Source of the DNA: Clostridiales bacterium
GTDB taxonomy: Bacteria; Bacillota; Clostridia; Peptostreptococcales; Anaerovoracaceae
Direction: 5' to 3'
Length of the DNA: 64,000 nt
NCBI GenBank assembly: GCA_022763735.1
Contig: JALEQY010000019.1
Span: forward strand, 1-64,000
The notes beneath the pieces are model-generated. The model was not told the DNA's origin. It did not search any database and saw only the letters and a list, made by a program, of their open reading frames with translations. Of the stretch, positions 39,948 through 52,004 are shown one piece after another (the stretch's first letter is position 1; every line of letters begins with the position of its first letter). A program made the position numbers and the translations under genes.

Positions 39948-40415
39948 TCAGTACTGGATTCTAAGCTCTATAGTATCAGGCAGCGTCTTCAGTTCCGTTT
40001 TTACCACTTCTGCAGGATAAGTTATTATCTGAGACAGTGCAGTTTTTTTCTGCGGATCCTCAAACAGCGCATATACGATAAGATTCTCTTTGTTGTCTTT
40101 ATGTTCAACAGCTATTTTCTTTACAGATACCCTGAATCCGGAAGTCGGTTTTTCTCCTCTTGTCACTATTACATATATATCATCATCCACTTTACATGCA
40201 AGTGCTCTTTCCAGAGTTTTATACTCTGGTATTATTTCTGCTGCAATTTCCTGAGGCATTTCATTTTTCTCACACACCTCAAATCCTATTTTTTCCTCAC
40301 CACCTGCAAACTTAAGAATAATCAGAGCCGCACAGATCCCTGCTATGAGAAAGAAAGCTGAAATCATCAGTAATTTTCTGCTTTCCCACTTTTTATTCGC
40401 CTTTTCTTTTTTCAA
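39948..40415 (-). CDS. PrcB C-terminal-like domain membrane-anchored protein, TTG start
   Basis: N-terminal TM; DDDIYVIVTRGEKPTSGFRVSVKKIA typical of PrcB_C; start TTG at 40413-40415 preceded by SD AAAGGGGGT. Confidence 0.65.
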   Translation of the reverse strand: MKKEKANKKWESRKLLMISAFFLIAGICAALIILKFAGGEEKIGFEVCEKNEMPQEIAAEIIPEYKTLERALACKVDDDIYVIVTRGEKPTSGFRVSVKKIAVEHKDNKENLIVYALFEDPQKKTALSQIITYPAEVVKTELKTLPDTIELRIQY

Positions 40416-40421
40416 AACAAA

Positions 40422-40472
40422 ACCCCCTTTATAACAAGTTCCAGATATATAGAACTTATTATCAAAGGGGGT
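40422..40472 (-). promoter_or_regulatory. Long hairpin that sequesters the SD of the PrcB-like gene; possible tkt terminator/attenuator
   Basis: Minus strand ACCCCCTTTGATAATAAGTTC-TATATATCTG-GAACTTGTTATAAAGGGGGT followed by TTTGTTTTG; 20-bp stem with one bulge and one G-U. Confidence 0.75.
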
Positions 40473-40488
40473 GGTTTATTCCTTTTAT

Positions 40489-41424
40489 TTAACGCTGGAG
40501 GACTGATTTCACCGCATTTATTATATCTGCTGAAGTCATTCCATATTTTTCTTTGAGCTGGTCTGGCTTGCCTGATTCCCCGTAGGTATCCTGCTGCCCT
40601 ACCATGGCCATTCTGACCGGAGCACTCTTTACCACCACTTCAGCTACTGCACTTCCGAGACCTCCAACGATAGAATGCTCTTCAGCAGTGACTATGGCTT
40701 TCGTTTCTTCTGCAGCTTTTATAATAGCATCAGAATCAATAGGCTTTATCGTATGTATATCGATAACTCTGACATCGATTCCTTCTTCCGCAAGCTTTTC
40801 TGCTGCAATAAAAGCTTCGTTCACCATTATTCCTGTAGCAATAACAGTGACATCCTTACCTTCTCTGATGGTATTTGCTCTACCTAAGGTTATATCTGCA
40901 CTCTCGTCATAAAACACAGGAACTGCCGCTCTTCCCAGTCTCACATAGCATGGACCGTACATTTCAACAGCCTGCTCCAGAAGTTTTTTCGCGGAGACAC
41001 CATCCGATGGATTGATAACAGTCATGCCCGGAATCGTTCTCATGAGAGCGATATCCTCAAAGGTCTGATGACTTGCACCATCCTCACCTACAGTTATACC
41101 GGCATGTGTTGCGCATATTTTGACATTGGCTTTAGTATAGCCTATTGAATTCCTTATTATTTCGAAGGCTCTGCCTGTCGCAAACATGGCAAATGTGCTG
41201 GCACATACCACTTTGCCTGAAAGAGCCAGTCCTGCTGCAGCCCCGTATAGGTTCTGTTCAGCAATACCCATATTAAAAAATCTTTCCGGATAGGTTTTTC
41301 CGAATTCAGCTGTCATCGTTGACTTGGAAAGGTCTGCATCCATAACCACCAGCTCAGGTTTTTTAGCACCGAGCTCAACCAGAGCCTTGCCATAAGCCTG
41401 TCTCGTTGCCATTTTATCTGCCAT
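40489..41424 (-). CDS. Transketolase, C-terminal subunit
   Basis: [63 protein letters not shown]-like signature ([26 protein letters not shown]). Confidence 0.95.
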   Translation of the reverse strand: [311 protein letters not shown]

Positions 41425-46149: not shown

Positions 46150-47130
46150 TTAAAGCTTCTCAAGATTCCTGTATGCTTTTTCTATTCTGCCGAACAGTAT
46201 ATCATCAAGAGGCAGGTTCTCTATCTCTATTCCATCAGCAGTTCTTCTGTTCCTGCATCCCAGAAATGCGCCGGAACCGTCTTTACCGAAATATACAGAA
46301 GAATAGTTCCAGCCCCCTTTCAGAGTTTCCAGCAGTGATATCGCACCGGATGAAAGCGCCGGAGCAATATATGGTTTGAAACCGTCTGCCCTTGTTTCCA
46401 TATTGGAATTCACTGTCAGAGCAGTAAGTTCAAGAGATTTCTCATGATCATAACTCGATACACTGTCGGCTATCACAAGATCTTCACCATGAGGCCCAAA
46501 AGCCCTTCCTTCATCAATATAACGCCTGAACCTGGCATCTTTTTCGGCAAAATACATTGCTCTGCCGTTCATAACTCCAAGTCCGTATCCCTGAATCTGA
46601 TCATCATCAAGTCCACATTCCAGTGCTGCTTTGCACAGAGGATCCACAGGATCTGACACCACTGCGAAAATTCCTCCGAAACCTGATTCCGCAGCCTGTC
46701 CTGCATATATGGATACTAGCTGCTTATTTGCCTGAAGCTGAGCCATCCTGACATCACCTGACGTTCCTACCGGAGGGACACCTCTGGAGGCACAGAATAT
46801 GAACATGTCACAGTCAAACAGCTCGTCCTGCTGAAGTATCCTGACATGAGGCATTTTCCTGCCGTCGGGGAACCATATCTGATTGATCTCACGTTCATAC
46901 CTTCTCAGCAGTTTTTCATTCAGATCATAAATACCGATCTGAGAAACAACACCTGTTCCCAGAAGTCTCAGACCCATCAGAACCGTACCTCCCACGTCAC
47001 CAAGAGCAAGAAGGTTCACACTTTTACCGCTTCTTTCTCCTATCCTGCGGATGCCTGAACTTAAATAGAATCCTTTATCTGTTCTGCCGGCTATTCTGCC
47101 ACTGTATGCCAATTCACTCAAATATCTCAT
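46150..47130 (-). CDS. Lactate/malate dehydrogenase-like NAD-binding protein
   Basis: NLLALGDVGGTVLMGLRLLGTGVVSQIGIYDLNEKLL; FAVVSDPVDPL; AFGPHGEDLVIADS resembles the catalytic-His GEHGDS loop; 4-bp overlap with the upstream gene. Confidence 0.65.
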   Translation of the reverse strand: MRYLSELAYSGRIAGRTDKGFYLSSGIRRIGERSGKSVNLLALGDVGGTVLMGLRLLGTGVVSQIGIYDLNEKLLRRYEREINQIWFPDGRKMPHVRILQQDELFDCDMFIFCASRGVPPVGTSGDVRMAQLQANKQLVSIYAGQAAESGFGGIFAVVSDPVDPLCKAALECGLDDDQIQGYGLGVMNGRAMYFAEKDARFRRYIDEGRAFGPHGEDLVIADSVSSYDHEKSLELTALTVNSNMETRADGFKPYIAPALSSGAISLLETLKGGWNYSSVYFGKDGSGAFLGCRNRRTADGIEIENLPLDDILFGRIEKAYRNLEKL

Positions 47131-50100
47131 TTCAATGCACTTTCCAGTCTAAGTAATCTTTCCATATAATCAGCCATGTACACCGACGGCGACAGATTGA
47201 AATCGACTGCCACGCGGTTTGACCCATTAGGCATCCTCGGTGATATCACAGCATCTGATAAACGTTTTATTGTCAGCTTTCTCTCGAAAATATTCTGATA
47301 TTCGTCCTCGAGGGTTCCGAAAATCTTAGCTGCATTCTCCAGGCTGACTCTGGAGAGCTCAAACACGGCCTCTCTGCTTGAATCATGCAGGAATCCCGGT
47401 GCGGCAAACGGAAGAATCAGGTTGATGGACGGGATAAGCCCGGCCTCTGTTTTTTCCTCGCTTCGCACACCGTCACCTCCGATAAACGGGCATAATGTTG
47501 ATTCAACAAACCATGTCTTCAGATTTGGAATAAAATACGCACTTTCAACATCTCTTCCCTGTATCGTCATCAGATCTCTGCCATGTCCCGAAAGCAGCCC
47601 GGTGATCATTTTTCTTATCTCCAGACCGTTTTCCTTGAATATAGGATCCAGAGCCTTGATTCTGTAGCCCTTGTGCAGCAGATCATCCACCAGTATCACA
47701 GGTCTTCCGAAAGATTTGATGGTTCTTATCTGATCTTCTATACCTGCATACATCGGATATTCCTCTATAGTGAAGCTGTCCAGTGTAGGCGAGAACATTT
47801 TCTCCGTATGAAGAGTCTTGGTTACCGTGTTAGGCACAGCCATTCCCTTCAGTATCTTGCCAAAAGGTACACACATGCATTCACCCAGAGTTCTCACAGG
47901 CAGCGTGTGATTAGGAACATTGTTTGTCTTTGTCACCATATTCACGATTTTCTGATGCATTATCCCTGCATTGAAAGAAAGCACCAGATTACCCGGATTC
48001 AGACTGGTCAGAGCACGCTGCATTTCAGCATGAGTTTCTTCTAGGACATCCAGAATCCTCGGATTCGTATTGAAAGGAGCCTTAAGTACTGTGTCCATGT
48101 TTTCTATCATAGCTACAGGCTCCTTCATATTCACCTCATACACTCCCTGAGGCCTTCCGTCGATTATTATTTCTGTAAAGCCCTGCCTCATCAGCACATC
48201 TGTTATTCTGTGATTCGGCTTCCTGTCAAGGGGGTGGAACACAGCGTAAGTCACATCGTTTTCAGCAGCCTCTGCCAGCACCTCTGTCATTATTATCTGT
48301 ATCAGATTTCTCATATCAGCCTTGACAGCACAGTAAAGAGCCCGGATGATTATCATTTTTCCTGTTGCCTTGGATCTGAGATATGACGCTATCTCAGCAT
48401 CTCTGAATTCTTCATACAGCTGCCCTGTCTCAAGTCCGTTCACAGCTGCAAAAGCCGCAATTCTTCCGCTGCTGTCACGTATGACAGCCATCTTCACACG
48501 AGGATCATCAAGGTAAGCTTTCATAGTTCTGATATCAAGCCCGCCTGCACTGAGATCCCCTTTTACATCTTCCAGAATTGTACTGTCAGCTCTGCGCAGT
48601 GATTCAAATGAGATGTTTCTGATCTCAAATACATTTTTATACTGCGGCTCTCTTAAATACAGGCTGTTATCATATATGAAATTCTGTGCCACCGGATCTA
48701 TCAGATTGGAAATATCACGTCCGTGATCTATGTTTTCTCTTATTCGTGTGGAACTTATATCTTCAAGGTAAACCGGCAGCTGCAGCTCACGTATTCTGCC
48801 TGACATGCGTCCATATGTCTCTCTTAGTACATTTTCATCCTTGCAGCCTCCCTCCAGAGTTTCTCTCCTGAACACTATATGGTTCATAGTATGGATAGAG
48901 TTTTCTGAAGGCTCGGCCTTGTATGACGACGCATTGATTACAACATCACTGCCTGCCACCATGTACAGATCTCTGTCGGGGAACAACCCTCTTAGTTTCC
49001 TCAGATCTTCCGGGTTCGCAATATTTACAGGAAAATCATCCGGAAAAAGGAATACATCCGCTTCGTCAGCCACTGACATGGATATTATCTGTCTTCGTAT
49101 CATTCTCGCCTGGGTTTTCTTTGACCATGAGAATTCATCAATTGCCAGATAAACCTCAAACCCTTCATCTCTTATTGCCTGAACGATTCCTTTGTGGCTG
49201 AGGGAAAACGGATCGAAGGTTCCCGGGAAGAAAGCTATATTCCTGTTAACAGGAAGTTTCATTTCACCGCAGCTGAAGTTATACTCTGCAATAAATCTGT
49301 AAATGTGGTTCAGAGCAGCAGCATTTGTAAAAAAGTTCATATCGTACTCTTTGTACTCTTTGATGGATGAAATCAGAGTAAGCATCTTCTTGTATATCTG
49401 CCTGAATATATCAAACTTCTCATTCTGTGACAGCTCACAGCTTCCGAAAATATACTGTCCGATAACCATGAAGGCTTCCTGACTTACCACTTCATGATAC
49501 GTAGCCAGACCTCTGAGCAGCATACCCAGCAGTCTTGACTGCCTGCTTATATAATCCTCCTGACTTTCTGCATTCCTGTATCTGTATGATGAGTATTTCT
49601 TAAGTACCTCGCCGACTGTATCAAGGGCCACCGATCCTATTCTGTCATTTGTACTCTGAATAAGTTCTCCCAGATTGTCGATAAATTCATCCAGTTCACC
49701 TGGCTCAAGATACAGCACCATTTCTCCTAGGTACTCGGGTATATACTTCGAAAATTGATATTCACCTATCTCAAGGCCCTTTGTAAGCTCTATGACAAGC
49801 TCATTTATCTGCTCTACCGGGAGAGTTTTTATAAGCTTTATCAGTCCTCTTCCTGCGTTATGACGTACAGTGACACGCTCACTTACTTTAAGAAGATTGG
49901 ACAGATGTGTTGCCAGATGGAATTTCTGGGTATCCAGTCTGCCGTTTTCCACATTATCCAGCAGATATTCAATATTGATAATTTTTACAACCCATGGAGT
50001 CCCTACCTTCAGGTTTTCTCTCAGCAGTGCAGGAGTCACATTCTCAAGCTTCCTGCTGTCTGACAGTCTTGCCGGCACATCACAGTATTCATGCTTCAGA

Positions 50101-52004
50101 TCTTCATCACCGATGTTATCAAGAACTTTCTGAATAAGGTACACTATACTTATACTTGAATCATGACGTCTGACATTATCTATTATTTTCCGAACATAAT
50201 CCAGAGTATCCGTATATACCATTCCCAGCGAAGCAATATACTCTGCAGCACGCAGTGCACCGGTTTTTATTTCCACAGGTTCTCTGCCTGAAACCTCCGC
50301 AGCAAACCTGAGCACAGCAAAAGCCTTCTCGCTGCAGATTATTTCTTCAGGTACTGCAATTACAGAATCCAGCAGCACGAACACTTCACTGTCTTTAATA
50401 TCTCCAGGATCAAACAGTTCAAAATAGATGTCCATAAAACTTTTTATGTCAACTTGATCGGCATGATCCAGGATTCCCTGCATGACTACTTTAAGGGTAT
50501 ATCCGATCCAGCTTCTATGCTGATCTGTCACTTTGTAATCCGGGAAAACTATTTTATCCAGATATACTTTCCAGACATCTGCAGCTTCGGTTCTGACAAC
50601 ACCTTTGGCATTCTCAGGAAGTTCCTTTCTGTATATATCGTCATATCTGGCTATGATAGTTCCCATGAGCCTTCCTGCCTGGCGTCTGATATCTCCTTCT
50701 CTATGCGACAGAAGATCATACAGGAAATGAAGAGTCAGCAGTTTCTCCTGTTTTGTCATATATGTGTGATACTCTGACAGTATATTCAGATATGCTCTCT
50801 GACTTTTCCACAGCTTCTCACTTCTGGCCGCCTCCAGCAGACTTCCGAATGCTGATTCATTGTTGAAAATACTCATTATCTTCACATTGTGCTCTATTGC
50901 AGTATATTTGATATTCTCAACGACCTCATTTCCCATCATAAGAGCATAGTTTTTCTTTTTTCTTCCTTTGTTTCTTCCCGGAATCTTGCTGATATCAGTT
51001 TCGACGCCAAGACTTACAAGATAATTCTCGAAATCCTTAAGTTTCGCGTAGACTCTTTCATATCTGTGTTTCTTCGCTTCATCCACATTGTCAAGCTTTC
51101 CCAGAATAACATCAAAGGCTTCATTAAGTGTGTAAAAGAACACGACCTCCTCACCATCTATCCTGCTGCTCTTTACTCTGAAATCCGCGTATATCAGGAG
51201 AAGAGACTCCACAGAAAGATTCTCAAGCTCAAGATCCCATGTCGAATGATTGCTGGCTATATGAGCTATCATAGGCATTTTTTCTCTCTTCAGCAATTCA
51301 TCAGTATAATAGTAATGGAGATATGGTATTCTTCTCACTTCCTGCTGTGTACAGCCGTATTTACCGAGATCATGACCTGCTGCCGCTCCTGAAACAAGGG
51401 CTATATCAACAGGAACATCAGTATCGATAAGCTGCATTCCCACAAAGGTTGCTACATGATGCACGCCTCCGATATGACCTATAGTATTAAAAGGTGTAAT
51501 CTCTCTGCTGATTCTCATGAATTCAGTTATGAAATTATCATCCCAGTATTTTCGGAATCTTTCATATTCCCTGGAAGTGATACACTCCGATGTATATTCT
51601 TCAGATATGAATTCAATATGGTCAGTCGGCGAAAAACCTCTGACCTCCTTCTCGTGTTCCAGCATCGCTCTGTAATTTACAAGAAAAAAGTAGGCTGCCC
51701 GCTGCCGTTCTTCTGTTGTATCTGCCGAAAAATTATCCGGATACATATGAGCTGTGGTAACATCACATATGTATCTGAGCCATCCCTGCTCGGGTTCAGA
51801 AGCCAGAATATCCAGCATCGGCTTCAGTTCGGCAAGAAGTCCTTCTGAGGAGTAATCACCGTTTTCCACCAGCCTGCTGATTTTCTTCTTCCACTGGTAA
51901 TCCGCAAGCATCCGGTTAACAGCAGTCTTTGTCATTCCTGTATTTTTCAGAGTTTTTTTATTCAGCAGCATCTGCTGGGTCTGTCTGATAAAATTCATAG
52001 TCAT
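47127..52004 (-). CDS. Giant multidomain protein: HD hydrolase + helical region + NadD-like adenylyltransferase + GNAT-like + phosphoribosyltransferase-like
   Basis: Single ORF (longest from 52049; SD AGAGAGGTG before ATG 52004). Motifs: GGVHHVA...GHDLGKYG...HIASNHS...ADFRV; FFPGTFDPFSLSHKG...ISSTRIRENI; GNAT-like C-terminal core; RPVILVDDLLHKGYR. Confidence 0.85.
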   Translation of the reverse strand: MTMNFIRQTQQMLLNKKTLKNTGMTKTAVNRMLADYQWKKKISRLVENGDYSSEGLLAELKPMLDILASEPEQGWLRYICDVTTAHMYPDNFSADTTEERQRAAYFFLVNYRAMLEHEKEVRGFSPTDHIEFISEEYTSECITSREYERFRKYWDDNFITEFMRISREITPFNTIGHIGGVHHVATFVGMQLIDTDVPVDIALVSGAAAGHDLGKYGCTQQEVRRIPYLHYYYTDELLKREKMPMIAHIASNHSTWDLELENLSVESLLLIYADFRVKSSRIDGEEVVFFYTLNEAFDVILGKLDNVDEAKKHRYERVYAKLKDFENYLVSLGVETDISKIPGRNKGRKKKNYALMMGNEVVENIKYTAIEHNVKIMSIFNNESAFGSLLEAARSEKLWKSQRAYLNILSEYHTYMTKQEKLLTLHFLYDLLSHREGDIRRQAGRLMGTIIARYDDIYRKELPENAKGVVRTEAADVWKVYLDKIVFPDYKVTDQHRSWIGYTLKVVMQGILDHADQVDIKSFMDIYFELFDPGDIKDSEVFVLLDSVIAVPEEIICSEKAFAVLRFAAEVSGREPVEIKTGALRAAEYIASLGMVYTDTLDYVRKIIDNVRRHDSSISIVYLIQKVLDNIGDEDLKHEYCDVPARLSDSRKLENVTPALLRENLKVGTPWVVKIINIEYLLDNVENGRLDTQKFHLATHLSNLLKVSERVTVRHNAGRGLIKLIKTLPVEQINELVIELTKGLEIGEYQFSKYIPEYLGEMVLYLEPGELDEFIDNLGELIQSTNDRIGSVALDTVGEVLKKYSSYRYRNAESQEDYISRQSRLLGMLLRGLATYHEVVSQEAFMVIGQYIFGSCELSQNEKFDIFRQIYKKMLTLISSIKEYKEYDMNFFTNAAALNHIYRFIAEYNFSCGEMKLPVNRNIAFFPGTFDPFSLSHKGIVQAIRDEGFEVYLAIDEFSWSKKTQARMIRRQIISMSVADEADVFLFPDDFPVNIANPEDLRKLRGLFPDRDLYMVAGSDVVINASSYKAEPSENSIHTMNHIVFRRETLEGGCKDENVLRETYGRMSGRIRELQLPVYLEDISSTRIRENIDHGRDISNLIDPVAQNFIYDNSLYLREPQYKNVFEIRNISFESLRRADSTILEDVKGDLSAGGLDIRTMKAYLDDPRVKMAVIRDSSGRIAAFAAVNGLETGQLYEEFRDAEIASYLRSKATGKMIIIRALYCAVKADMRNLIQIIMTEVLAEAAENDVTYAVFHPLDRKPNHRITDVLMRQGFTEIIIDGRPQGVYEVNMKEPVAMIENMDTVLKAPFNTNPRILDVLEETHAEMQRALTSLNPGNLVLSFNAGIMHQKIVNMVTKTNNVPNHTLPVRTLGECMCVPFGKILKGMAVPNTVTKTLHTEKMFSPTLDSFTIEEYPMYAGIEDQIRTIKSFGRPVILVDDLLHKGYRIKALDPIFKENGLEIRKMITGLLSGHGRDLMTIQGRDVESAYFIPNLKTWFVESTLCPFIGGDGVRSEEKTEAGLIPSINLILPFAAPGFLHDSSREAVFELSRVSLENAAKIFGTLEDEYQNIFERKLTIKRLSDAVISPRMPNGSNRVAVDFNLSPSVYMADYMERLLRLESALK

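Follow-up and report, generated by a model that had tools for sequence, protein, structure and literature searches.

A conserved hairpin over the Shine-Dalgarno sequence of a PrcB-like gene probably holds a sporulation promoter in its 5' arm

The window analysed here is a stretch of 64,000 nucleotides from a Clostridiales bacterium of the family Anaerovoracaceae (GenBank assembly GCA_022763735.1, contig JALEQY010000019.1). The PrcB-like gene (39948..40415, minus strand) encodes a protein of 155 amino acids with one N-terminal transmembrane helix and a PrcB_C domain (PF14343; E = 1e-14, 54.8 bits against a cut-off of 24). The AlphaFold model of this protein has a pLDDT of 90, and a fold search with the model found nothing related in the PDB (best E 0.1, TM about 0.2). 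The genes ftsE and ftsX and an M23 peptidase gene are located downstream. The upstream gene on the same strand, found in the open reading frame list and by its Pfam domains (PF02779/PF02780), encodes the C-terminal subunit of transketolase (40489..41424) and is the presumed source of read-through RNA.

Between the two genes we found a terminator-like hairpin that sequesters the Shine-Dalgarno sequence (SD) of the PrcB-like gene (40421..40472, minus strand; 5' arm from 40472, 3' arm 40440-40421). The stem has about 22 pairs, continuous apart from one bulged G, and encloses a loop at 40446..40452 (minus strand). The SD, AAAGGGGG (40423..40430, minus strand), lies within the 3' arm, and the U-rich tail TTTTGTTTTG (40413..40422, minus strand) overlaps the TTG start codon at 40415-40413. 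Both the sequence and the position of the hairpin are as the first-pass annotation of this DNA had given them, and its choice of the TTG start also holds. Homologues have ATG (L048) or GTG (L045) at this position, after the same SD and U-run, and the first in-frame ATG falls inside the predicted N-terminal transmembrane helix.

The hairpin stands out in the window. Its energy is about -31 kcal/mol over the span from the predicted -35 box to the start codon. The 141 nt at 40380-40520 fold with a minimum free energy of -38.3 kcal/mol; shuffled sequences average -23.9 (sd 3.3), giving z = -4.36, and none of 200 shuffles folded equally well. Among the 56 genes of the window, the PrcB-like gene comes first on two measures, the extent to which upstream sequence pairs with its SD and the energy of the hairpin, and the hairpin occurs once in the genome. 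We also observed that the SD of a large open reading frame at 47127-52004 (minus strand) pairs upstream and that a sigma-E-like motif is present there; this motif is too close to the start codon for a promoter and probably arose by chance.

A promoter-like motif runs into the 5' arm of the hairpin. Its predicted -35 box, GAATA (40477..40481, minus strand), is of the sigma-E type K-M-ATA, and its predicted -10 box, TAATA (40457..40461, minus strand), is of the sigma-E type [C/A]ATA and lies in the 5' arm. The 15-nt spacer between them, AACCACCCCCTTTGA (40462..40476, minus strand), is the arm that pairs with the SD. The two boxes keep a fixed 20-nt offset in nearly all homologues. The motif K-M-ATA-N15-N-[AC]ATA was found within 330 nt upstream of the gene at 77 of the 80 homologue loci, compared with 4.2% of control windows from the same contigs, and inspection showed near-matches at the other three. 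At the -35 position homologues carry GAATA, GCATA, GTATA or TCATA, followed by 15 bases and then by GAATA, TAATA or [A/T/G]CATA at the -10 position. The resulting profile is K-M-ATA at -35 and [AC]ATAnnnT at -10. Positions that the search had left free also fit sigma-E, since G occupies the first -35 position in 92% of cases and T the last position of CATAnnnT in 81%.

The -10 element is common to sigma-E and sigma-K, and the -35 element is ATA for sigma-E and AC for sigma-K (PMC3789822). The homologue motif agrees with the sigma-E consensus in its ATA at -35, its CATAnnnT-like -10 and its fixed spacing. It departs from the consensus in the window, where the -10 box is TAATA rather than CATA; homologues have AATA or CATA. 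The gene spoIVA is a canonical sigma-E gene. Upstream of it, several relatives from other families carry TCATA-N15-TCATA and the host genus carries GAATA-N15-CAATA, in the same register as at prcB. Upstream of spoIIIAA in the host genus, TCATATTT and GGAATAT are present, one base closer. No sigma-E-like motif was seen upstream of sigG in the host genus, at loci where the automatic choice of start was wrong. For listing a regulon, the pattern GAATATTT-N12-GAATA was too loose, as was a composite promoter/anti-SD pattern, whose counts equalled those of the reversed control.

The same mechanism could be served by sigma-H or another sporulation sigma factor in place of sigma-E, and sigma-H was our own first reading. 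The GGAATA...AAT of the window resembles a sigma-H promoter, and the -10 box in the genus is AATA. We dropped this reading after finding homologues with TCATA or GCATA at -35 and CATA at -10, a combination that many homologues share and that is unlike the sigma-H consensus. Register and letters also match those of spoIVA in the same genomes, and we consider a sigma factor other than sigma-E unlikely.

The promoter spacer and the SD are matched to each other locus by locus. Between the spacer and the 24 nt preceding the start codon, pairing had a mean energy of -14.7 kcal/mol within loci, -10.8 kcal/mol across loci and -8.2 kcal/mol for shuffled spacers. The advantage of own over cross-locus pairing gave p = 1e-12, a value that, like the other p-values here, overstates independence because the homologues are related. 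Canonical pairs made up 83% of spacer positions with the locus's own 3' arm, 59% with arms of other loci and 49-63% when slid by 1-3 columns, in a register that was anchored on the predicted pairs and so favours pairing. This structure-anchored register was used because MAFFT misaligned the stem arms. Two-sided changes were found across loci, with CCCCC/GGGGG, CCTCC/GGAGG, CTCCC/GGGAG and CTCAC/GTGAG as alternative pairings. Emergencia-type loci (L079, L082) have another solution, in which a GTCTC overlapping the -10 box pairs with GGAGAT. About 19 of the 78 loci, mostly from distant families, show weak pairing or none, among them those of Geosporobacter (L095, L097). At these two and at L105, the nearest upstream open reading frame is on the opposite strand, and the promoter motif is kept and the SD pairing lost. 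At L057 and L070, which have opposite or distant upstream genes, SD pairing is still present.

The folding of RNAs with varied 5' ends indicates what the arrangement may do. RNA from the window with its 5' end at 40470 or farther upstream is predicted to leave the SD 1-11% unpaired, and RNA that begins at 40465 or farther downstream leaves it 55-93% unpaired. The switch is sharp, from 11% at 40470 to 88% at 40465. For 5' ends at 40452-40444 the value is 55-63%, and it is 63% at the predicted transcription start near 40449 (minus strand), which lies in the loop and was placed from the position of the promoter. Over 78 loci, the predicted mean unpaired fraction of the SD is 21% in read-through RNA versus 59% in the predicted sigma-E transcript. 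The SD is therefore paired in RNA entering from the upstream gene, as in systems of the T4 gene e and B. subtilis sigG type.

A simpler account would make the hairpin only the intrinsic terminator of the transketolase operon, with the SD overlap as a by-product of a compact genome. The GC-rich stem is followed directly by the U-run, as in an intrinsic terminator. Between the end of the transketolase stop codon and the -35 box lie 7 nt, which leave no room for another terminator. Among homologues, T makes up 71% of the bases between SD and start where the hairpin is strong and 33% where it is weak, so that a strong stem tends to be followed by a U-run. A scan for short-stem terminators did not list the hairpin. 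However, six loci keep the SD pairing without a U-run (L080, L083, L087, L091, L119, L122), and the promoter-like motif in the arm is left unexplained. SD pairing is also kept behind other upstream genes (L056, L063, L072, L093, L096), which indicates that the hairpin belongs to the PrcB-like gene. The first-pass annotation had tied the hairpin to transketolase: it does follow that gene directly, but it is not specific to it. The closer a co-directional upstream gene, the stronger the pairing (Spearman -0.37, p = 0.003). We consider it improbable that the hairpin is a terminator and nothing else.

The strong SD-occluding fold could also belong to a regulated leader (a riboswitch, thermometer or protein-bound switch) on an mRNA that carries the whole hairpin. 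An Rfam search found no relevant match. The conserved letters form two ATA boxes at a fixed DNA spacing rather than a loop or aptamer, and the loop varies freely in length and sequence, which makes such a leader very improbable. Least credible of all is a palindromic DNA operator for a repressor overlapping the promoter, since the inverted repeat around the -10 box that suggests it has an inter-arm distance that varies widely among homologues, tolerates G-T pairs and has a 3' arm that coincides with the SD.

The gene itself is linked to sporulation. In 100 genomes (the host and its relatives, counting strong PrcB hits), 27 have both the PrcB-like gene and spoIVA, none has spoIVA only, 71 have neither, and the two with the PrcB-like gene only are 81-86% complete. 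Within the host genus, both genes are present in nine genomes and both absent from 40, which places the PrcB-like gene in 9/9 sporulating genomes and 0/40 others. Fisher tests gave 2e-22 for the 100 genomes and 5e-10 for the genus, p-values that are too small given the relatedness of the genomes. Metagenome assemblies make up most of the genomes compared, and the homologues do not count as independent. The host also carries sigG and spoIIIAA. A search of the literature on PrcB and sporulation found nothing relevant. As its presence tracks spoIVA, the PrcB-like protein is a candidate uncharacterised sporulation protein.

The layout is repeated at spoIVA. In the host genus, the SD of spoIVA is 84-100% paired with its own promoter region at eight of nine loci, with GGAGGTTTTTATTTTG at the start. 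SD-promoter pairing was not seen at spoIVA in other families, and one locus from the same family as the host (L138) has it. A promoter-embedded SD hairpin, a U-run and a TTG start occur together at seven spoIVA loci (L204, L211, L212, L220, L227, L228, L230). The gene ahead of spoIVA in the host genus looks like miaB.

Furthermore, we searched for a pattern of SD, T-run and start codon. Nine sporulating genomes of the genus gave 31 matches (10 for the reversed control), and eight non-sporulating ones gave three (2 for the reversed control). Besides spoIVA and prcB, the matches include genes for an S11 D-Ala-D-Ala carboxypeptidase and for a phosphoesterase of the purple-acid-phosphatase-like kind; in read-through RNA, the SDs of both are completely paired. 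Three carboxypeptidase loci (L205, L215, L222) have a hairpin over the SD of up to -34 kcal/mol over 80 nt, with a CATAnnnT box in the loop region. Five phosphoesterase loci in sporulating genomes (L206, L207, L221, L223, L224) have a terminator-like hairpin over the SD. The carboxypeptidases and three of the five phosphoesterases have a CATA box within the hairpin, placed so that it would free the SD, suggesting that their -10 may also be inside the hairpin; their candidate -35 boxes disagree with the spacing of sigma-E. At a SpoIIAA gene (L232:1513-1875) with a GTG start, the SD lies in a hairpin ending in a U-run.

It is a tentative but serious possibility that a promoter placed inside a terminator inside an SD-blocker is a general insulator cassette of the Anaerovoracaceae lineage, evolved separately at prcB, spoIVA, the metallophosphoesterase and the S11 carboxypeptidase. 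If so, one hairpin of ~70 nt would end the upstream operon, block leaky translation and start the developmental transcript.

For the prcB locus, we consider it likely that the element is a mother-cell sporulation promoter of the sigma-E type, contained in the 5' arm of a terminator-like hairpin that blocks the SD. This reading joins the hairpin, its conservation and covariation, the promoter-like motif in its arm, the co-occurrence of the gene with sporulation genes and the spoIVA layout in the genus; from them we infer that sigma-E is used, where transcription starts and ends, and how translation is affected. In vegetative cells, polymerase that runs on from the transketolase operon would copy the whole hairpin, and much of the transketolase-derived RNA would end at the U-run. 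In the remaining read-through mRNA the SD would be paired with the promoter spacer, and no PrcB-like protein would be made. During sporulation, sigma-E RNA polymerase would start at ~40449, in the loop, and the resulting mRNA, without the 5' arm, would have a free SD and allow translation of the TTG-start gene.

Much of this had been raised in the first-pass annotation. Comparative evidence lends support to its proposals that the SD is buried in read-through mRNA (the conserved spacer-SD pairing), that an internal promoter may be the way out (the conserved promoter-like motif in the 5' arm) and that the hairpin may double as a terminator. It had named covariation in relatives as a check, and spacer and SD do covary. 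It overlooked the predicted promoter whose -35/-10 spacer is the 5' arm of the hairpin, and it counted a transcription start inside the hairpin as refuting its proposal, whereas the evidence suggests that a start there is how the hairpin works.

Two known systems resemble this one. For the B. subtilis sigG gene (spoIIIG), the account in PMC5942855, citing Sun 1991 and Masuda 1988, reports a proposal that a hairpin of 20+ bp keeps read-through mRNA of the spoIIG operon from being translated; this hairpin cannot form in mRNA from PsigG. As in that account, the prcB element concerns a sporulation gene behind another operon, with the hairpin predicted to be absent from own-promoter mRNA. Unlike prcB, sigG is a different gene under sigma-F/G, and the passages of that source on its hairpin describe no terminator tail; unlike the sigG hairpin as presented there, the prcB hairpin has counterparts with covarying arms in many genera, and the arrangement recurs at spoIVA. 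In T4 gene e (also soc, 49 and I-TevI), early read-through RNA has a buried SD, and a late promoter located in the DNA that encodes the 5' strand yields mRNA that lacks this strand and is well translated, an effect of about 100-fold for e (PMC3014915). At prcB, a promoter-like motif is conserved at fixed spacing in the 5' arm. Unlike prcB, T4 gene e uses a phage late sigma factor, with no terminator described, and the two are not homologous.

By analogy, it is well supported that the prcB element would work like B. subtilis sigG and T4 gene e. What appears new relative to them is the predicted terminator tail, the broad conservation with covariation and the apparent reuse at a second canonical sporulation gene. 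The prcB element brings deep comparative evidence to a mechanism so far represented by a few single cases, and suggests that a terminator has been merged into the SD-blocking hairpin. It implies that a lineage can reuse such a device to silence developmental genes within crowded vegetative operons. It also serves as a warning that a hairpin covering an SD is not necessarily a riboswitch and can conceal a promoter.
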